This document shows positions 50,700-59,979 of a stretch of DNA of 64,000 bases, piece by piece; positions within the stretch are counted from its first letter, which is position 1, and each line of letters opens with the position of its first letter. The translations under genes and the position numbers were made by a program. This DNA is from Oryzomonas sp. (lineage in GTDB: Bacteria > Desulfobacterota > Desulfuromonadia > Geobacterales > Pseudopelobacteraceae). The DNA lies in the NCBI GenBank assembly GCA_031292255.1, contig JARLHN010000015.1, positions 1-64,000 on the forward strand, given 5' to 3'. Below the pieces are notes generated by a model, which saw nothing but the letters and a program-made list of their open reading frames with translations, did not search any database and was not told the DNA's origin.

Positions 50700-50747
50700 G
50701 CCCATGGCCGGCAACACCAGTCCTTCCCTGTATTGCCGGCCATGGGC
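50700..50747. repeat. 15-bp perfect inverted repeat
   Basis: GCCCATGGCCGGCAA and its exact complement TTGCCGGCCATGGGC are separated by 18 bp. There is no U-tract. It lies 127 bp after the lipoprotein gene, so a terminator or an intergenic palindrome. Confidence 0.6.
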
Positions 50748-50795
50748 GCAGGCTGGCAAGCATTATGCTTGAAAAAACGGATCGAACGACAACCT

Positions 50796-50972: not shown

Positions 50973-52214
50973 ATGGATACAGCCGCAAACGCCGCACTGC
51001 TCAATGCGACCCTGAACGACATCTGTGTACGCCACCCGGAAACCCTGCCGGTATTCATCAATGCGGGCTTGGAGATGGTTGAGGATGAAGGGCTTCGCGC
51101 GTCATTCGGGACGGTGGTGACGCTCCGCACCCTCCTCAAGGCGCGGGATCTCAATAGCGATCTGTTCTGCCGGCGCCTGGACGAGGTGATTGCCGAGGCT
51201 GTCCGGACGGTGCGGAAACAGGCGGAGCCCGAGGCGGTGGGAATCCCCCTCAACCTGTTCGCCCTGCTCCCTTGTCCGCTCAAGGTGCCTCTGGAGGAGG
51301 CTTTCGAGGCGTACCTGGACGCCCTTCCACCGGACAAGCGCTCGTCCTTTACCTATTGCCTTGAGGGGAACGCCAACCACGATGTGGATTACTATGCACT
51401 GGTGGATCATTTCGAGTCCATTGACGACATGCCGGACATCATTATCACCCCCGGCTTCAACAGTTTTTTCCACCGGCCGTTCGTGGAGCGCTTTATCGAA
51501 CAAGGGCTGTTCACCAGCGTCTCCACCTTTGGCGGGGACCGTCACCTTGCAAAGTTGGGGGTTACCGATCCCCAGGGGCAGTACACCATGCTGGCCATGA
51601 ACCTGCTGGTGTTGGTGGCCGATCATGCCCGCCTCGACGGCCGGCCGGCCCCCGAGACCTGGAAGGACCTTCTGGAACCGGTGTACCGCAAAAGCGTCGC
51701 AATTCGCGGCAACCACGACGGTTCCTTCTGCGAGACCCTGCTGCTGTCCATCCACAAGGATTACGGCCTGACCGGCGTGTCCCGGCTGGGGGAGAACGTC
51801 AGGTACGGCTGGCACCCCTCCCAGATGGTCAAGGCCGCTGCCGGCAGCAGTGCGGACGCCCCGGCCGTCAGCGTCATGCCGTATTTCTTTGCCCGGCACC
51901 TCCGGAACAAGGAGGGGATCAGCATCATCTGGCCCAGGGATGGTGCCCTGGTCAGCCCGGTGACCATGCTGGTCAAGACCGGAAAACGTGCGGAGTTGCA
52001 ACCGCTGATCGATTTCCTGTCCGGAGCCCAGGTTGCCGTGATCTGCGCCGACGCCGGCTTTCCGGCCGTCTACCCCGGAGTGGACAACCGCTTGCCGGAC
52101 GATGCCGCCTTAAAGTGGATCGGCTGGGAGTACGTGAAAAAGAACGACATCAAGTCCATGCAGGTGGAGATCAACGCGACCTTTCTCCGGGCGTTCAAGG
52201 GTGGCGGGGCATGA
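50973..52214 (+). CDS. Cytosolic ABC substrate-binding-protein-like protein with N-terminal DUF1858/ScdA_N-like domain
   Basis: A 413-residue protein without signal peptide. Residues ~8-70 look like the DUF1858/ScdA N-terminal helical domain (LNDICVRHPETLPVFINAGL) but without its Cys. Residues ~120-400 follow the fold of type II binding proteins: FTYCLEGNANHDVDYYALVD, PDIIITPGFNSFFHRPFVER, and KEGISIIWPRDGALVSPVTM as in iron(III)-binding proteins. AGGA is 5 nt before the ATG at 50973; an alternative start is 4 codons upstream. Its stop overlaps the next start (ATGA). Together with a GTPase and a soluble ABC ATPase it forms a permease-less set next to nifH. Function unknown; metal or cofactor handling is my inference. 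Confidence 0.78.
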   Translation: MDTAANAALLNATLNDICVRHPETLPVFINAGLEMVEDEGLRASFGTVVTLRTLLKARDLNSDLFCRRLDEVIAEAVRTVRKQAEPEAVGIPLNLFALLPCPLKVPLEEAFEAYLDALPPDKRSSFTYCLEGNANHDVDYYALVDHFESIDDMPDIIITPGFNSFFHRPFVERFIEQGLFTSVSTFGGDRHLAKLGVTDPQGQYTMLAMNLLVLVADHARLDGRPAPETWKDLLEPVYRKSVAIRGNHDGSFCETLLLSIHKDYGLTGVSRLGENVRYGWHPSQMVKAAAGSSADAPAVSVMPYFFARHLRNKEGISIIWPRDGALVSPVTMLVKTGKRAELQPLIDFLSGAQVAVICADAGFPAVYPGVDNRLPDDAALKWIGWEYVKKNDIKSMQVEINATFLRAFKGGGA

Positions 52215-52897
52215 GGTTGATCACCGTGGCCGGGCCGCCGTCGTCGGGCAAGACCTCCGTGATCATCAAGGCGGTCGAGGCGTTGCAAGGGGAGGGGGTC
52301 AAGGTCGGCGTCATCAAGTTCGACTGCCTCTCCACCGGCGACCAGGCCCTGTACGAGCGCAGGGGGATCTCGGCAAAGACCGGCCTGTCCGGCAATCTTT
52401 GCCCGGACCACTTCTTTGTCAGCAATATTCAGGAGTGCCTGCAATGGGGCGAGCAGAGCGGTTTCGACCTGCTGGTCTCCGAGAGCGCAGGGTTGTGCAA
52501 TCGTTGCGCGCCCCACATCAAGGATGTGTGCGCGGTCTGCGTGATCGACAACCTGAGCGGGGTGGAGACACCGCGCAAGATCGGGCCGATGCTCAAGATG
52601 GCGGATATCGTGGTGGTCACTAAGGGGGACATCGTCTCCCAGGCCGAGCGGGAGGTGTTCTCCTACCGGGTGCGGCAGGTCAATCCGGGTGCTGTCATCA
52701 TCAACGTAAACGGCCTGACCGGGCAGGGGGGTTACGAGTTGGGGCGCCTACTCTCCGCCGCCCAAGAGACAGTCTCCCTGACCGGCAGGCTGTTGCGCTT
52801 TTCCATGCCGGCGGCGCTTTGTTCCTATTGCCTCGGCCAGCGGAAAATAGGCAGCGATTACCAGATGGGCAACGTCAGGAAGATGGATTTTACATGA
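52211..52897 (+). CDS. HypB/UreG-type (G3E) GTPase with Cys motifs
   Basis: A 228-residue P-loop protein. The Walker A is TVAGPPSSGKTSVIIKA, and switch-like VGVIKFDCLSTGD follows. SESAGLCNRCAPHIKDVCAV takes the position of the SIMIBI 'ES-x-G' Walker B and adds C-x-x-C and C-x-x-C pairs. The base-specificity motif is VVVTKGD in place of NKxD. A C-terminal CSYC is also present. HypB and UreG load nickel into hydrogenase and urease; the Cys here suggests metal binding too. Both ends overlap neighbours by ATGA, so tight co-translation. Confidence 0.82.
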   Translation: MRLITVAGPPSSGKTSVIIKAVEALQGEGVKVGVIKFDCLSTGDQALYERRGISAKTGLSGNLCPDHFFVSNIQECLQWGEQSGFDLLVSESAGLCNRCAPHIKDVCAVCVIDNLSGVETPRKIGPMLKMADIVVVTKGDIVSQAEREVFSYRVRQVNPGAVIINVNGLTGQGGYELGRLLSAAQETVSLTGRLLRFSMPAALCSYCLGQRKIGSDYQMGNVRKMDFT

Positions 52898-53910
52898 CAA
52901 CCGGTCACGATACAGTACCTTACAGCGCCATGTCGGCCGGGGAGTTGCTGCGAAAACATCCCTACGCGGAGGACTTTTTCACCTCTTTGGGGTTGGCGCT
53001 GCCGCCCGCCGAAGAGTCGGTCGGCGCCTACTTCGGGCGCCTCACGTCCGAGGTCCTGGAGGACCTGGGGGTCGAACGCCGGGAACTGGTTGAACGGTTC
53101 AGCGCCTTTATGGCCCTCGTGGTCTCGCTTCGGGAAAAACGGACCGGGCCGGCCATCGACTCCATCACCATCCAGGGGGGTGTGGACAAGAGTGGCGCTG
53201 CCGAGGAGTTCGTGCTGACCGTCGCTCCGGGCGAGGTGGTTTCCATCGTCGGCCCGACCGGCTCGGGCAAGAGCCGCTTCCTGGCCGATATCGAATGGAT
53301 GGCCCAGGGGGACACCCCCACCCGGCGCCGGGTGCTGATTAACGGCAGCGTGCCCGACCCGTCCCGTCGTTTCTCCCTGGAACACAAGCTGGTGGCCCAA
53401 CTCTCCCAGAACATGAACTTTGTCATGGACCTGAGCGTGGAGGAGTTCATCGCCATGCATGCCGAGAGCCGCATGGTGAATGACGTGGCCGGGATCACGC
53501 GCACCATTATCGAAAAGGCCAATGAACTGGCCGGGGAAGGGTTCTTGCCCCAGACCCCGGTCACGGCCCTGTCCGGCGGCCAGTCACGGGCTCTGATGAT
53601 CGCCGACACATCCTGCCTCAGCACCTCGCCCATCGTGCTCATCGACGAGATCGAAAACGCCGGCATTGACCGGAAGAAGGCGGTGAGGACCCTGGTTGAC
53701 GAGCACAAGATCGTGCTGATGGCCACCCACGACCCGATCCTGGCCCTGATGGGGGACCGGCGCTTGGTATTCAAAAACGGCGGCGTGCGGGCGATCATCG
53801 CCACCACCCCCGCCGAGCGGGCCACCATGGCGGCCTTCGAGGAGTTGGATGCCCGGCTGACCGCTGTCCGCAACGCCCTGCGCAATGGGGAGCGGATCGA
53901 TTGCGTCTGA
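52894..53910 (+). CDS. Soluble ABC ATPase with N-terminal DUF1858-like domain
   Basis: A 338-residue protein. Residues ~12-75 repeat the theme of the first gene (AGELLRKHPYAEDFFTSLGL). The ABC domain follows at ~95-300: Walker A SIVGPTGSGKSRFLAD, Q-loop near VAQLSQNMNF, signature LSGGQSRALM, Walker B IVLIDEIENAGID and the H-switch MATHDP. There is no transmembrane segment and no permease gene in the operon. The complete ATPase site says it hydrolyses ATP, perhaps to drive conformational work on a protein partner. The combination with a binding-protein-like partner and a GTPase is unusual. Confidence 0.85.
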   Translation: MTTGHDTVPYSAMSAGELLRKHPYAEDFFTSLGLALPPAEESVGAYFGRLTSEVLEDLGVERRELVERFSAFMALVVSLREKRTGPAIDSITIQGGVDKSGAAEEFVLTVAPGEVVSIVGPTGSGKSRFLADIEWMAQGDTPTRRRVLINGSVPDPSRRFSLEHKLVAQLSQNMNFVMDLSVEEFIAMHAESRMVNDVAGITRTIIEKANELAGEGFLPQTPVTALSGGQSRALMIADTSCLSTSPIVLIDEIENAGIDRKKAVRTLVDEHKIVLMATHDPILALMGDRRLVFKNGGVRAIIATTPAERATMAAFEELDARLTAVRNALRNGERIDCV

Positions 53911-53986: not shown

Positions 53987-54052
53987 GCGGCAGGTTACGT
54001 TGATCGGGAGCAGACAGGCTATTTAAGGGCCTTGAGTCGTGTTTTATCCTGT

Positions 54053-54068
54053 TGGCACGCATTGTGTA
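54053..54068 (+). promoter_or_regulatory. Candidate sigma54 promoter 2 upstream of nifH
   Basis: TTGGCACG with a perfect -24 (TGGCAC), then N5 and GTGTA at -12 where TTGCA is expected (GT for the GC dinucleotide). The predicted start (~54079) falls just before the first leader hairpin. It fits nifH being nitrogen-regulated through sigma54. Confidence 0.42.
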
Positions 54069-54342: not shown

Positions 54343-55218
<876 letters not shown>

Positions 55219-55286: not shown

Positions 55287-55595
55287 TCAGCAGCTTTCCT
55301 CTTCGATCTGTTCCAAGAGCTTTAGGGCATTCCGATCGTCGTAGGTCTCGAAGAGTTCCCTGATGTTATTGATATAGGAGTGGATCAGGAGCAGTTCGTC
55401 AATGCAGCGGCCGCTGGTCTTGTCCGGGGTTTCCACGTTGTCCAGCTTGTCCCTGAACCGTTCCCAAAAGAGGTTTGTCCGTTCGGGGTCATCGATGTGC
55501 CGCCGCAGCATCCCCATGAGCACCCTCGCGTTTTCGTCGCCCTTGATCCCGATGAACGATACGTAACGGTCCGGTTTTTCCACAGTCGCCTCCAT
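55287..55595 (-). CDS. cowN: CowN-type protein, sustains N2 fixation in the presence of CO
   Basis: A 102-residue protein: [59 protein letters not shown] and the tail [10 protein letters not shown]. These match the CowN family (DRYVSF-x-GI-x-x-x-x-NA-R, RHI-DP-x-x-SN-FW-x-x-F, LIHS-x-x-x-x-I-x-ELFE, EE-x-C). CowN protects nitrogenase from carbon monoxide inhibition, known from purple bacteria and Gluconacetobacter. It follows an FKBP gene by 17 bp on the same strand, and is convergent to nifH. N-terminus is slightly extended (MEATVEKP). Confidence 0.88.
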
Positions 55596-55612: not shown

Positions 55613-56041
55613 TTATTCAACTCTATCCAGCCGCAGGGCAAAGGTCAGGTCCAGACCGGCCAGGGGGTGGTTGCCGTCCAGCGTCACCTCGGTCTCGGTG
55701 ATCCCGGTGATCTGCATGACCCGTTCAGTCCCACCCGTAAAGGCGATGCTGAGTTTTTGACCAATACTGATCTCTTTTTCAGCGGGGAAATGGGACCGTT
55801 CCACGCGGATGATGTTTTCTTTCAGCCGGGGCCCGTATGCCTCCGCGGCCGGGATGACGATATTGACCGTCTCTCCGACGGCCATGCCGACCACTGCCTG
55901 TTCCAGAGCCGGAAAGACCTGATTCCGGCCGATGGTGAAGGTAAGCGGTTCTTCGTCGGCGGTGCTGTGGAAGATGCGCCCATTGTCGAGTGTCCCGATG
56001 TAGTGGACCGATACAGTGCTGCCCTGTTGTGCATGTGTCAT
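55613..56041 (-). CDS. FKBP-type peptidyl-prolyl isomerase (SlyD-like)
   Basis: A 142-residue SlyD-like protein: [56 protein letters not shown] and the inserted IF chaperone flap (ISIGQKLSI...). It ends [18 protein letters not shown]. The nickel-binding His/Cys tail of E. coli SlyD is missing. The start at 56041, with AAGGAG 8 nt upstream, is better than the long in-frame extension to 56221. It is co-transcribed with cowN. A sigma54-like site 50 bp upstream suggests nitrogen regulation. Confidence 0.92.
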
Positions 56042-56090
56042 GTTCCATACTCCTTGCAGGCTATGGTTCACTGCTGTTGCCATGACGGTA

Positions 56091-56106
56091 TGCAACAAGT
56101 CGGCCG
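56091..56106 (-). promoter_or_regulatory. Candidate sigma54 promoter of the FKBP-cowN unit
   Basis: On the minus strand CGGCCG-N5-TTGCA, with the GG-N10-GC spacing met and a perfect -12. The start would be near 56079, giving a ~38-nt leader with the ribosome binding site. Confidence 0.5.
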
Positions 56107-56196
56107 AGATGAGTGTTGAATACGCTTCAGTAAACAACGGGACTTGCGGCAAGGCTGCTGCTGCATAATGGGGCAAATGAGCAGTATCTGACCATT

Positions 56197-56220
56197 CGTT
56201 ATGCAAATATAAATATAACA
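56197..56220. promoter_or_regulatory. ModE-like box 1
   Basis: CGTTATGC-N8-ATATAACA, an imperfect 8-8-8 palindrome close to the E. coli ModE consensus CGTTATAT-N(4-8)-ATATAACG. It lies ~91 bp upstream of the FKBP-cowN sigma54-like site. Confidence 0.5.
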
Positions 56221-56338
56221 TCTGACTTTATTGAGCCATAACCATACAAATATAAAAGATTGTAACCCATGTAACTGTTTGGCACGGGTTATGTAGTTTC
56301 CATGTGTTTTCCCGGACCGTCGCGGTGCCGCAATGCGC

Positions 56339-56560: not shown

Positions 56561-57415
56561 ATGCTTGCCTGTCTGCCTGACGGGGAGATCGAACGGTTCA
56601 TCGATGAGGACCTCCCCTATGGTGATCTGACCACCCATCTGCTCGGTATCGGTCATCAGCCGGGCGCCATTACCTTTTCCACCCGTGAGGACACGACCCT
56701 CTGTTGTTGCGAGGAAGCGGGCCGGGTGCTGGAAAAATGCGGTTGCAGTATCTCGATCCTCGTGCCGAGCGGAACGCGCTGTGATCCCGGCACGATTTTT
56801 TTGAACGCCCAGGGAACGGCACAGGCTCTGCACGCCGGCTGGAAGGTTGCCTTGAACCTGCTGGAGTACGCCTCCGGCATAGCCACGCGGACCGCCAGGA
56901 TTGTCCGGGCCGCCAGGGAGGCGAATCCGGGTATCGTTGTGGTTACTACCCGCAAATCCTTTCCCGGCACCAAGAAGGTCGCCATTAAGGCCATCATGGC
57001 CGGCGGTGCCCTGCCTCATCGATTGGGACTGTCGGAAACCGTGCTGGTGTTCAAGCAGCATACCGCCTTTCTTGGCGGTCTGGATGGGTTTCTGAAGGAG
57101 GTAGCCGATCTGCGGGCCAGGGCGCCGGAAAACCGGATCATCGTCGAGGCGGAGAACGCCGAAGAGGCGTTGCGTATAGCCGGGGCAGGGGTGGATGTGG
57201 TCCAGGTGGACAAGCTGGAGCCCGCCGAGTTGCGGCAATTGGCGTCAGATGTCCACACAATGGACCGGGCGGTCAGGATATCCGCGGCAGGTGGCATCAA
57301 CGAGGGAAATGTGGCCCAGTACGCCGCCAGCGGCGTGGACATCATCGTCCTGTCCTCGGTCTACTTCGGCAAGCCTGCGGACATCGGCGTCCGAATCGTT
57401 CCCAGCGTAGCATGA
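56561..57415 (+). CDS. modD: ModD, molybdenum transport-associated NadC-like protein
   Basis: A 284-residue protein of the quinolinate phosphoribosyltransferase superfamily. EDLPYGDLTTHLLG, LLEYASGIATRTARIVRAAR, VVTTRKSFPGTKKVAIKAI, GGALPHRLGLSETVLVFKQH and EAENAEEALRI follow the ModD branch; true NadC differs (TRKT-x-PG-x-R, GG-x-x-NHR). The biochemical role of ModD is unknown. GGAGGAGG is 5 nt before the ATG at 56561. First gene of a modDABC series; modA starts 66 bp later. Confidence 0.92.
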   Translation: MLACLPDGEIERFIDEDLPYGDLTTHLLGIGHQPGAITFSTREDTTLCCCEEAGRVLEKCGCSISILVPSGTRCDPGTIFLNAQGTAQALHAGWKVALNLLEYASGIATRTARIVRAAREANPGIVVVTTRKSFPGTKKVAIKAIMAGGALPHRLGLSETVLVFKQHTAFLGGLDGFLKEVADLRARAPENRIIVEAENAEEALRIAGAGVDVVQVDKLEPAELRQLASDVHTMDRAVRISAAGGINEGNVAQYAASGVDIIVLSSVYFGKPADIGVRIVPSVA

Positions 57416-57480: not shown

Positions 57481-58227
57481 ATGAATCGCGTAATATCCAC
57501 ACTGATTGTCGTTGCGGCTTGTTTACTCCCCATCGCCGCAACGGCTGCCGAGATCAACCTGTTTGTGGCGGCCAGCATGAAAGAGGTGGTCAACGAACTG
57601 GCCGACAGCTATGCGAAGCAGAATAGCGGCATAATCTTCAAGAAAAATTACGGCGCATCCGGCTCCCTGGCCAAACAGATCGAGAACGGCGCCCCGGCGG
57701 ACATCTTCATTTCGGCCAATCTGGAATGGATGGAGTATATGAAGGCCAGGAAACTGGCCGACGACAAGAGCATCGCTACCTTTGCCTACAACTCACTGGT
57801 ATTCGCCGGCCGGCCGGGGGTGAAGGCCGCCGGCATGTCCGACGTGGTCAGGCTGAACAGGATAGCCATCGGCAGCCCCAAGAGCGTGCCGGCCGGGGAA
57901 TACGCCGTCGAGGCCTTCAGGAAGGCGGGGATCGACAAACAACTCGAAAAAAAGCTGGTCATGGCCAAAGACGTGCGGGAATGCCTGTTGTACGCAGATC
58001 GCGGCGAGGTTGACGGCGCGTTTGTCTATAAAACCGATGCGCTGCAGGTTGCCAGGAGCGCCCGAATCCTGTTCACGGTCCCCCAGGAATATTACTCGCG
58101 AGTTACCTATCCCATGGCCTTGACCGTGGCTGGCAGCCGAAAGGCCGTGGCCGCCGGATTCTACCGGTTTCTGGAGTCGGCCGATGCCAAGGCCGTACTT
58201 GCCAGGCACGGTTTCAGCGTGAAATAG
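57481..58227 (+). CDS. modA: Molybdate-binding periplasmic protein
   Basis: A 248-residue binding protein with a signal peptide (VISTLIVVAACLLPIAATAAE). It starts INLFVAASMKEVVNELADSY, with NYGASGSLAKQIENGAPADIFISAN and IGSPKSVPAGEYAVEAF, hallmarks of ModA: the Ser after GAS and in AASM contact molybdate. VDGAFVYKTDA contains the conserved Tyr. It delivers molybdate to ModB. GGAG stands upstream. Genes modB and modC follow. Confidence 0.96.
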   Translation: MNRVISTLIVVAACLLPIAATAAEINLFVAASMKEVVNELADSYAKQNSGIIFKKNYGASGSLAKQIENGAPADIFISANLEWMEYMKARKLADDKSIATFAYNSLVFAGRPGVKAAGMSDVVRLNRIAIGSPKSVPAGEYAVEAFRKAGIDKQLEKKLVMAKDVRECLLYADRGEVDGAFVYKTDALQVARSARILFTVPQEYYSRVTYPMALTVAGSRKAVAAGFYRFLESADAKAVLARHGFSVK

Positions 58228-58235
58228 GGCACGCT

Positions 58236-58922
58236 ATGCCGGCCTTCACCTCAGCCGAATACCTGGCCATCCTGCTGTCGCTCAAGGTGGCGACCGTGGC
58301 GACGCTGGTGTCGCTTCCCTTCGGGTTCGGGGTCGCCTATCTCATGACCTACCGGCAGTTTCGCGGTAAGGTCGCGCTGGATGTGGCGGTCAATCTTCCC
58401 CTGACCCTGCCGCCCGTGGTGATAGGGTATATCCTCCTGTTGCTCCTGGGCCAAGAGGGTTTCATCGGCCAGCATCTGCTGCAGCCGCTCGGCATAAGAT
58501 TGATCTTTACCTGGAAAGCCGCGGTCATTGCCACGGCCGTGGTCGGCTTTCCCCTCATGGTCAGGTCGATCCGCCTGGGCATGGAAGGCGTTGACGAGCG
58601 TCTGATCCAGGTCGCCCGCACCCTGGGCGCCGGGTGGTTCGACACCATCGTGACCGTGATCATCCCTCTTTCGCTGCGCGGGATCGCTGCCGGGTCGGTG
58701 CTCATGTTCGCCCGCGGCCTGGGAGAATTCGGTGCGACCATCGTGGTGGCCGGCAATATCCCCGGCGTAACCCAGACCATCCCCCTGGCGATCTACGAGT
58801 ATGCCAGTTCGCCCGACGGCGACCGCATGGCCCTTGCCCTGTGCCTGGTGTCGGTCCTCATCTCGGTTGTCGTGCTCCTGCTCCACGAATATCTCAATCG
58901 TCGCATCGCCAGGGCTGACTGA
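58236..58922 (+). CDS. modB: Molybdate ABC transporter permease
   Basis: A 228-residue permease with about five helices. It starts TSAEYLAILLSLKVATVATLVSLPFG, then NLPLTLPPVVIGYILLLLLG and the EAA loop EGVDERLIQVARTLGAGWFDTIVTV, which docks ModC. FARGLGEFGATIVVAGNIPG is a ModB hallmark. It lies 8 bp after modA and 1 bp before modC. Confidence 0.96.
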   Translation: MPAFTSAEYLAILLSLKVATVATLVSLPFGFGVAYLMTYRQFRGKVALDVAVNLPLTLPPVVIGYILLLLLGQEGFIGQHLLQPLGIRLIFTWKAAVIATAVVGFPLMVRSIRLGMEGVDERLIQVARTLGAGWFDTIVTVIIPLSLRGIAAGSVLMFARGLGEFGATIVVAGNIPGVTQTIPLAIYEYASSPDGDRMALALCLVSVLISVVVLLLHEYLNRRIARAD

Positions 58923-58923
58923 C

Positions 58924-59979
58924 ATGGAACTGCACGTTGCCCTGCAAAAGAGTTTCGGCGCTTTTTCCCTGGATGTTTCGTTCACGGTACGTGGAGAACG
59001 CATCGGAGTATTCGGACCGTCGGGAAGCGGAAAATCCACGTTGGTAAGCCTGCTCGCCGGATTGCAGCAACCGGACAACGGCATCATCCGGCTGGACGGC
59101 GAACTGCTCTACGATAGCCACGACGCCACCAATATCCCTCCGGAACAGCGCCGTATCGGCATCGTTTTCCAACACCCCTACCTGTTTCCCCACATGAGCG
59201 TCAAGGGAAACCTCCTCTACGGCTACAAACGGAGCGCCCCGGCAAACCGCAGGATCGATTTCGACAGCCTGGTGGCGGTGCTGCAGTTAGACCATCTCCT
59301 ATCACGCGGCGTGCATAACCTTTCGGGCGGGGAGAAACAGCGGGTGGCCATCGGTAGGACGGTCCTTTCCAGCCCCCGCCTGCTGCTCATGGACGAGCCC
59401 CTGTCGGCGCTGGACGACACTCTCAAGTTCCAGATCATCGATTACCTGAAGGCCGCCAGCGAGGCGTTCCGGATCCCCTATCTCTTCATCTCCCACTCGC
59501 TCCTGGAGATGCGCATCATGGCTGACCGGGTACTTGCGGCCAGCGCCGGACGCATCGAGGCCCAGACAACAACGGAGGATCTGGCCCGATCCCGCATGGG
59601 GCTGAGTCCGGTCGGCTATATCAACCTCTTGCAGCTGGCTCACCCGCGCAAGGTTGACGGCATGTCCGCCTACGCCTGGGGCGGGACCGAGCTTCTGATC
59701 TCCGCCGACGGCGACCATCCGGAATCACTGTTCGAACTCTCCTCGAAGGATATCATCCTGATCAAACAGCATCCGGACGCAATTAGCGCCAGAAACCTGC
59801 TCGACTGCACCGTTTCCGGCACCTTCCGGTCCGGCGGCAAGGTTGGGGTTGAGCTTGCCTGCGGTGACGGACGGCTCGTGGCCGAAGTGGTACAGCAGGC
59901 TGCCTGTGAACTGGGCATCGAAATAGGGAGCAGGCTTTTCGCGGCCATAAAGGCTTCGGCTTTTCGGCGGCTTGGCTGA
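58924..59979 (+). CDS. modC: Molybdate ABC transporter ATP-binding protein
   Basis: A 351-residue ATPase. Walker A VFGPSGSGKSTLVSLLAG, Q-loop IGIVFQHPYLFPHMSV, signature LSGGEKQRVAIGR, Walker B LLLMDEPLSALDD and H-loop FISHSLLE. The C-terminal TOBE domain (~290-350) binds oxyanions in related proteins and may give trans-inhibition. It starts 1 bp after the modB stop. Confidence 0.96.
   Translation: MELHVALQKSFGAFSLDVSFTVRGERIGVFGPSGSGKSTLVSLLAGLQQPDNGIIRLDGELLYDSHDATNIPPEQRRIGIVFQHPYLFPHMSVKGNLLYGYKRSAPANRRIDFDSLVAVLQLDHLLSRGVHNLSGGEKQRVAIGRTVLSSPRLLLMDEPLSALDDTLKFQIIDYLKAASEAFRIPYLFISHSLLEMRIMADRVLAASAGRIEAQTTTEDLARSRMGLSPVGYINLLQLAHPRKVDGMSAYAWGGTELLISADGDHPESLFELSSKDIILIKQHPDAISARNLLDCTVSGTFRSGGKVGVELACGDGRLVAEVVQQAACELGIEIGSRLFAAIKASAFRRLG

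Follow-up and report, generated by a model that had tools for sequence, protein, structure and literature searches.

A cytosolic binding-protein-like subunit encoded with a HypB/UreG-like GTPase and an ABC ATPase lacking a permease, beside a second nifH of Oryzomonas sp.: a candidate metallocofactor system with clade-dependent context

The window analysed here is a stretch of 64,000 nucleotides from Oryzomonas sp. (contig JARLHN010000015.1, positions 1 to 64,000). At positions 50973-53910 it contains three genes, joined at both junctions by 4-nt ATGA overlaps, which encode a cytosolic substrate-binding-protein-like subunit (SBP), a SIMIBI GTPase resembling HypB and UreG, and an ATP-binding cassette (ABC) ATPase without permease. 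This trio is real, widespread and conserved, and as far as searched it is undescribed. In total 58 core loci were found, the window included, and the trio is therefore no chance arrangement. The genomic context gives good support to reading the trio in general as a metallocofactor machine, while its biochemistry is predicted here from sequence. The specific proposal, for which the chances seem slightly short of even, is that the trio forms a cytosolic nucleoside triphosphate (NTP)-driven system for the delivery or repair of metallocofactors, with a cargo that would differ by clade.

The SBP subunit consists of an N-terminal DUF1858 module and an SBP_bac_6 domain (aa 151-391, Pfam), and its predicted structure matches the ferric-binding proteins FutA and FbpA best. 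Cys101 is present in all 64 SBP rows aligned at its position, and of the 70 rows that cover His281, 64 have it (the alignment of 74 rows contains both L006 and L050, which are the same place; the ten rows gapped at Cys101 are mostly short variant SBPs). In the model Cys101 starts a helix and His281 lies just before one, each following a strand. Such strand-to-helix positions are the usual ligand-binding place of SBPs, and the two conserved residues are likely candidates for metal ligands. An open reading frame (ORF) cluster on the opposite strand over the SBP gene in L051 and L062 (c38) was set aside as a probable shadow ORF. Relatives of the SBP also occur in other surroundings. A 907-aa ORF in L059 (8175-10898) combines a part resembling DUF1858 plus SBP (24% identity) with a long unannotated remainder, and gives no NCBIfam match at 1e-10. 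The Desulfosporosinus locus L009 (1-17000) contains modA, modB and modD, an SBP relative without GTPase, a FecCD permease, a periplasmic binding protein, a DUF364-type protein (profile built in this analysis) and two nitrogenase-like (Oxidored_nitro) proteins.

The GTPase contains the C-x-x-C pairs C96/C99 and C204/C207 as well as a TKGD motif, and its model (predicted local distance difference test, pLDDT, 87.7) has HypB and UreG as the nearest PDB folds. The residues C64, H67, C96, C99, C204 and C207 are invariant in 90/90 GTPases, including 72/72 of the trio type and 18/18 of a more distant type encoded with iron-sulfur (Fe-S) domain proteins. H102 (53/72) and C110 (70/72) are found in trio-type rows and are absent from the Fe-S type. 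The conserved Cys/His residues on a HypB/UreG fold may well form a metal site. Profile and fold would also suit a nickel insertase, the function that the earlier note on this stretch, made without database searches, gave for HypB and UreG. However, the NCBIfam equivalog scores fall far below their cut-offs (52.9 bits against 121.2 for HypB, 27.4 against 204.2 for UreG), and no nickel-enzyme family was recognised among the 30 neighbour representatives scanned, which are a subset of the neighbours. An AIR-synthase-type gene that by eye resembles HypE does adjoin the trio in L079. Nickel insertion is thus not indicated and was set aside as very improbable.

In the ABC ATPase the nine catalytic positions of the Walker A and B motifs, Q-loop, signature, catalytic glutamate and H-loop are invariant in 91/91 rows, a number that counts the window twice and both L006 and L050. 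Its N-terminus aligns with the DUF1858 module of the SBP in both directions of comparison, so that a shared docking module is likely, although not certain. By hydropathy none of the three proteins is a transmembrane permease: the peak values over 19 residues are 1.51 for the SBP, 1.30 for the ABC ATPase and 1.18 for the GTPase, against a minimum of 2.07 among 34 permease matches used as controls. The window SBP also shows no hydrophobic, signal-peptide-like stretch at its N-terminus (maximum of 0.77 over the first 45 residues) and starts with DUF1858; in the variant SBPs either the domain itself or DUF1858 stands at the N-terminus. In the trio relatives hydropathy reaches 1.95, a range shared with exported ModA (minimum 1.61), and for these relatives the test therefore argues better against transmembrane helices than against signal peptides. 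The earlier note had described three coupled ORFs, a binding-protein fold without signal peptide, a SIMIBI GTPase with paired cysteines and TKGD, a soluble ABC ATPase with complete catalytic motifs, and no transmembrane protein. This anatomy is borne out in every part, and the DUF1858 modules, the one in the ABC ATPase being probable, add to it.

Core loci are those in which all three proteins passed their score limits, so that the joint presence of the proteins there holds by definition; L050 was dropped as a duplicate of L006. An overlap of exactly 4 nt between the SBP gene and the GTPase gene is seen in 25/59 loci, a count that includes this duplicate. A tree of 90 GTPases (92 minus identical ones) was obtained by a quick search, with support from the Shimodaira-Hasegawa-like approximate likelihood ratio test (SH-aLRT) only and with long branches that meet. 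The 18 Fe-S-type GTPases form one branch (support 99). The window's protein belongs to a clade of 28 (support 86), here called the nif clade, 20 of whose members lie beside nif or mod genes (mod 17, nif 13); seven of the others carry none of the labels and one an importer label. The sister clade, here called the hcp clade, comprises 23 GTPases (support 98) from relatives in the class, from Bacillota genomes (Bacillota here denoting the phylum to which a genome titled Desulfosporosinus belongs) and from Fusobacterium. Without the long-branched L123, 16 of its 22 members have a neighbour of the hcp or nrfA kind (hcp 12, nrfA 4) and none has nif or mod. In this way the suggestion of the earlier note that the machine is perhaps for nitrogenase holds in the window's clade only.

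The neighbours were also compared with those of 40 control loci (two per genome in 20 genomes, with coordinates chosen by hand before inspection), to which the neighbour profiles, made from the neighbours of the trio loci themselves, were applied in the same manner. Among the 58 core loci mod genes were found in 18 (controls 0), hcp in 12 (0), nif in 13 (2), FecCD/PBP2 in 7 (0) and SsuC in none (1). Several nif-clade loci carry genes of the NifV, NifB or NifDKEN type, and CowN and DraT are among the trio neighbours. Downstream of the ABC gene, nine loci of the hcp clade within the class (L048, L049, L052, L053, L055-L058, L061) share a conserved small protein (80 to 95 aa); one representative matched nothing in Pfam and, in NCBIfam, a zinc-protein model only below threshold. 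The clades differ within the SBP as well: C253, N133, N210, R245 and T331 are fixed in 27 nif-clade sequences, whereas 22 hcp-clade sequences have F, A, V, P and F at the matching positions. As C101 and H281 are retained in both, this pattern suits one engine with different cargo. Nitrogenase, hybrid cluster protein (HCP) and the Fe-S-type relatives have complex iron-sulfur chemistry in common, not nickel.

In deeper branches of the tree are units that adjoin importer genes and whose SBP is short or was not detected. The trio might be a degenerate or permease-sharing ABC importer, whose SBP and ATPase rely on a permease gene nearby or elsewhere. SBP_bac_6 is a family of transporter proteins, 17/58 core loci have a recognised permease gene (ModB or FecCD, no SsuC; mostly the ModB of molybdate importers) within the fetched stretch, and 16 of the 90 tree rows bear the importer label, with variant units of GTPase and ABC, with or without a short SBP, adjoining importer genes. 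In L083, L109, L123, L125-L128 and L145, however, the permease genes are accompanied by a separate ABC ORF, which was not seen for L115, L118, L124 and L129; the window's molybdate importer has its own ModC. In addition, the trio ABC ATPase carries a DUF1858-like N-terminus, and the SBPs begin as described above. An importer is considered improbable. The earlier note had regarded a location mainly beside membrane permeases as speaking against an intracellular machine; the core loci are not mainly so placed, but the short-SBP variants do adjoin importers.

Within the class, SBP matches occur in 48/146 genomes (weak in G005 and G056) and GTPase matches in 47/146 (of the distant Fe-S type in G028). 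GTPase matches were further obtained in 13/247 genomes of the phylum and in 39/299 genomes of the Desulfosporosinus phylum, with trio and Fe-S types mixed in both numbers. A search of plasmids gave one close relative, a Fusobacterium vincentii record with the trio, and 16 weaker matches which, where annotated, are UreG or HypB. This record (L063) was deposited as plasmid pSB055A and has a chromosome-like size of 2.1 Mb; by eye, its trio is followed by genes resembling a zinc-type importer. Matches to nifD over the cut-off are present in 29/29 nif-clade genomes of the class (26 assigned by the tree, and G059, G121 and G140 by SBP match), compared with 88 of the 117 remaining class genomes (Fisher 0.0012) and 5 of the 16 that have the hcp clade only (7/16 with any match; Fisher 4e-7 on the five), values that are not corrected for relatedness and, the loci being related, overstate independence. 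The tree includes nine of these 16 genomes; the other seven (G051, G083, G099, G105, G120, G124, G132) were assigned by SBP match. Outside the class a trio-type GTPase was found in 27 genomes or records; nifD exceeds the cut-off in 8 of them (nine with any match), six of the eight being the six same-phylum genomes, and HCP is found in 26 of the 27. Restriction to nitrogenase genomes is thus true of the nif clade and false of the family.

The trio lies upstream of further genes connected with nitrogen fixation and molybdenum (Table 1). As the earlier note had it, the trio is next to nifH; this nifH is a second intact copy without adjoining nifDK, with cowN and modDABC further downstream. The main nifH is located beside nifD on another contig, and the two copies are 87.8% identical. 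The genome has four NifH-type matches, three of them over the nifH cut-off and two of the four on contig C44. The true start of modC is probably downstream of 58801, since the profile match opens at residue 45.

Table 1. Features of the trio and its surroundings in the window.
Feature	Position	Strand	Evidence
Sigma54-like (-24/-12) promoter candidate	50753..50771	+	CTGGCAAGCATTATGCTTG; upstream of trio; 19 bp identical in 4/4 aligned same-genus upstream regions
SBP, cytosolic binding-protein-like subunit	50973..52214	+	413 aa; SBP_bac_6 E 5.8e-84; model pLDDT 85.8; best PDB folds FutA/FbpA
DUF1858 module of SBP (aa 11-65)	51003..51167	+	PF08984 33.3 bits, cut-off 32.2
SIMIBI GTPase, HypB/UreG-like	52211..52897	+	228 aa; cobW/HypB/UreG Pfam E 4.6e-12; invariant C64 H67 C96 C99 C204 C207
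Permease-less ABC ATPase	52894..53910	+	338 aa; ABC_tran E 1.5e-13; catalytic motifs invariant
ABC N-terminal module, probably DUF1858-related	52933..53148	+	hhalign with SBP module: 86% / E 5e-6; reverse 73% / E 3.2e-5
nifH, second intact copy	54355..55218	+	TIGR01287 470 bits, cut-off 394
cowN	55287..55595	-	NF033689 118 bits, cut-off 48
FKBP-type peptidyl-prolyl isomerase	55613..56221	-	PF00254 9.5e-20
modD	56576..57415	+	TIGR01334 267 bits, cut-off 179
modA	57481..58227	+	TIGR01256 168 bits, cut-off 62.5
modB	58236..58922	+	TIGR02141 233 bits, cut-off 183
modC	58801..59979	+	TIGR02142 384 bits, cut-off 285

The modDABC and nifH genes of the window, together with the mod genes in 17/28 nif-clade loci and the NifV/NifB/NifDKEN-type genes in several of them, would be explained if the trio served molybdenum trafficking in a NifQ-like role and provided the second NifH with molybdate or Mo-homocitrate for assembly of the iron-molybdenum cofactor (FeMo-co). 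By a hand tally, however, NifQ coexists with the trio in 10/29 nif-clade genomes, so that the trio is no simple substitute and its interpretation as a NifQ replacement is not supported. The 22 hcp-clade members are likewise without nif or mod neighbours, yet they have the identical six GTPase residues. Molybdenum trafficking as the function of the trio is therefore judged unlikely.

Candidate regulatory sites show a comparable division. The sigma54-like footprint upstream of the trio sits in an alignment of 52% mean identity. Within the window the consensus is not significant alone (6 matches against 6.3 expected), and only the footprint in four relatives and the comparison between clades carry weight. 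With the GG/GC core required and at most two mismatches, sigma54-like sites occur in 12/27 nif-clade upstream regions (2.6 expected from mononucleotide shuffles), some of which belong to close relatives sharing one site, against 0/13 hcp-clade regions of the class and 0/9 Bacillota/Fusobacterium regions. Conversely, the core of the HcpR/FNR-type motif, which Rodionov et al. (PMC1274295) gave for HcpR in Desulfuromonas and Geobacter, is found in 10/13 hcp-clade regions of the class (0.64 expected), 2/9 Bacillota/Fusobacterium regions (0.33 expected) and 1/27 nif-clade regions (1.35 expected). In seven of the ten hcp-clade regions the site lies 92-96 nt before the profile start and is thus fixed relative to the trio. 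Because the HcpR motif is similar to FNR sites and five of the ten loci have hcp close by, the regulator is not proven; for C. difficile, the relevant part of PMC12915319 calls frdX-hcp alone direct HcpR targets. Candidate regulation would thus match the client of each clade, sigma54-like with the nif clade and HcpR/FNR-type with the hcp clade.

Further sigma54-like sites were noted in the window at 54052-54068 (upstream of nifH) and 56279-56295 (upstream of modD), and comparable sites in loci of the same genus (two each in L003 and L031, one in L051). By eye, a long inverted repeat (GCCCATGGCCGGCAA ... TTGCCGGCCATGGGC, about 50700-50747) is seen between an upstream lipoprotein-like gene and the trio, and is partly retained in relatives.

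The HcpR/FNR-type sites, the CowN and DraT neighbours and the DUF1858 proteins that excerpts of PMC6710368 and PMC6282519 place in other nitric oxide (NO) or nitrate contexts might also indicate a regulatory or protective switch, in which the trio senses metal, NO or carbon monoxide and acts on nitrogenase or HCP as a modulator while moving no metal. A sensor would hardly seem to need two complete NTPases whose catalytic residues are invariant, and a switch appears rather unlikely.

Several observations weigh against delivery or repair of metallocofactors as proposed here. Most diazotrophs of the class lack the trio: by hand count, a trio-type GTPase is present in 35 of the 117 genomes with nifD over the cut-off (29 nif clade, 5 hcp clade and G119). 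HCP is found in 141/146 class genomes, so that its presence predicts nothing and was discarded as a predictor; at the same time none was found in the assembly that contains the window (G000), which is 88% complete. No nif, mod, hcp or nrf neighbour occurs in 21/58 core loci, and nrfA is not enriched (4/58 core against 2/40 control loci), for which reason this linkage was dropped. Several short variant SBPs are without Cys101 and read HSPLNI or similar there, and six rows lack His281. Finally, L009, L054, L059 and the second SBP of L006 are SBP relatives without the GTPase and the trio-type ABC ATPase, and the SBP may therefore have other partners.

In a delivery or repair system, the SBP, a ferric-binding-protein fold retained in the cytosol, would bind a metal or a small metal cluster within its cleft, Cys101 and His281 being the likely ligands. 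The GTPase may take over or check the metal at a Cys/His site of its own, as in HypB and UreG, and the ABC ATPase, docked via the DUF1858-like modules that it seems to share with the SBP, would do the mechanical work of opening either carrier or client. Whereas gene order, domains, conserved residues, neighbourhoods and candidate regulatory sites are observed, the cargo, the formation of such a complex, the docking and the order of steps are inferred, and the system may act in first insertion or in repair. In the window's clade the client would be part of the Mo-nitrogenase pathway, with Fe or Mo as possible cargo; in the sister clade it would be the nitrosative-stress Fe-S machinery around HCP. 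More tentatively, the trio may represent an undescribed kind of dual-NTPase metallocluster machine, in which a ferric-binding fold taken back into the cytosol acts as a cluster carrier that is loaded or unloaded by the HypB-like GTPase and the DUF1858-docked ABC ATPase, the same engine serving different cargo (nitrogenase cofactor or hybrid cluster) and its ABC and GTPase core being shared with a wider Fe-S-protein family. Of the earlier suggestion of a metallocofactor machine, the general part fits the anatomy and context, and the nitrogenase link agrees with the neighbours, nifD and sigma54-like sites of the window's clade, but it does not extend to the family, given the hcp/nrf sister clade and the nifD counts outside the class.

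No description or function of the trio was found in open-licence PubMed Central full text, in agreement with the earlier note, which knew of no system of this composition. The available sections of a review of NTPase metallochaperones (PMC9164220) do not name it, and among the titles and abstract openings listed for maturation factors none was named for HCP. The building and mending of complex metal clusters in anaerobes is still incompletely understood, and the assembly of Mo-nitrogenase is an engineering target. With two motors, an internal fold of metal-binding type and candidate sites of nif type or NO type depending on the clade, the trio is a testable candidate for the maturation of nitrogenase and HCP.

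Each component has parallels among known systems. The GTPase shares with HypB and UreG the fold, the P-loop and TKGD, and has Cys/His residues in stretches that appear to correspond to their metal sites. Unlike HypB and UreG, it scores below the equivalog cut-offs, has an extra LCxxC and a C-terminal CxxCLG, and is partnered by an SBP and an ABC ATPase. FbpA and FutA, which are exported importer subunits, have the fold of the trio SBP domain, but the trio SBP is without signal peptide and contains DUF1858 and a conserved cysteine. The soluble ABC ATPase, tied to metallocluster genes, is comparable to SufC of SufBCD, described in an excerpt of PMC9164220 as a permease-less ABC ATPase of Fe-S assembly; no SufB or SufD family was recognised among the neighbour representatives scanned with Pfam, no dedicated search having been made. 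Component A2 of the methyl-coenzyme M reductase (MCR) activation complex is likewise a permease-less ABC ATPase required to activate a metalloenzyme (PMC12176620, in the part available), but it has two ABC domains per chain, and the subunit list given there for the complex names no GTPase or SBP. A further parallel is provided by the Fe-S-type units (18 loci, L085-L088 and L131-L144). Unlike the trio, these units have no SBP match and instead encode an Fe-S-domain protein in 18/18 loci (profile built here; PF04060 shown for two representatives), with a NifS-like desulfurase in 2/18, of which one tested copy scored below the NifS cut-off. The ABC gene is present in 17/18 and comes first in order where present (L131 begins at a contig end), and the distant GTPase, at 181-200 bits, is homologous to that of the trio and retains the identical six Cys/His residues.

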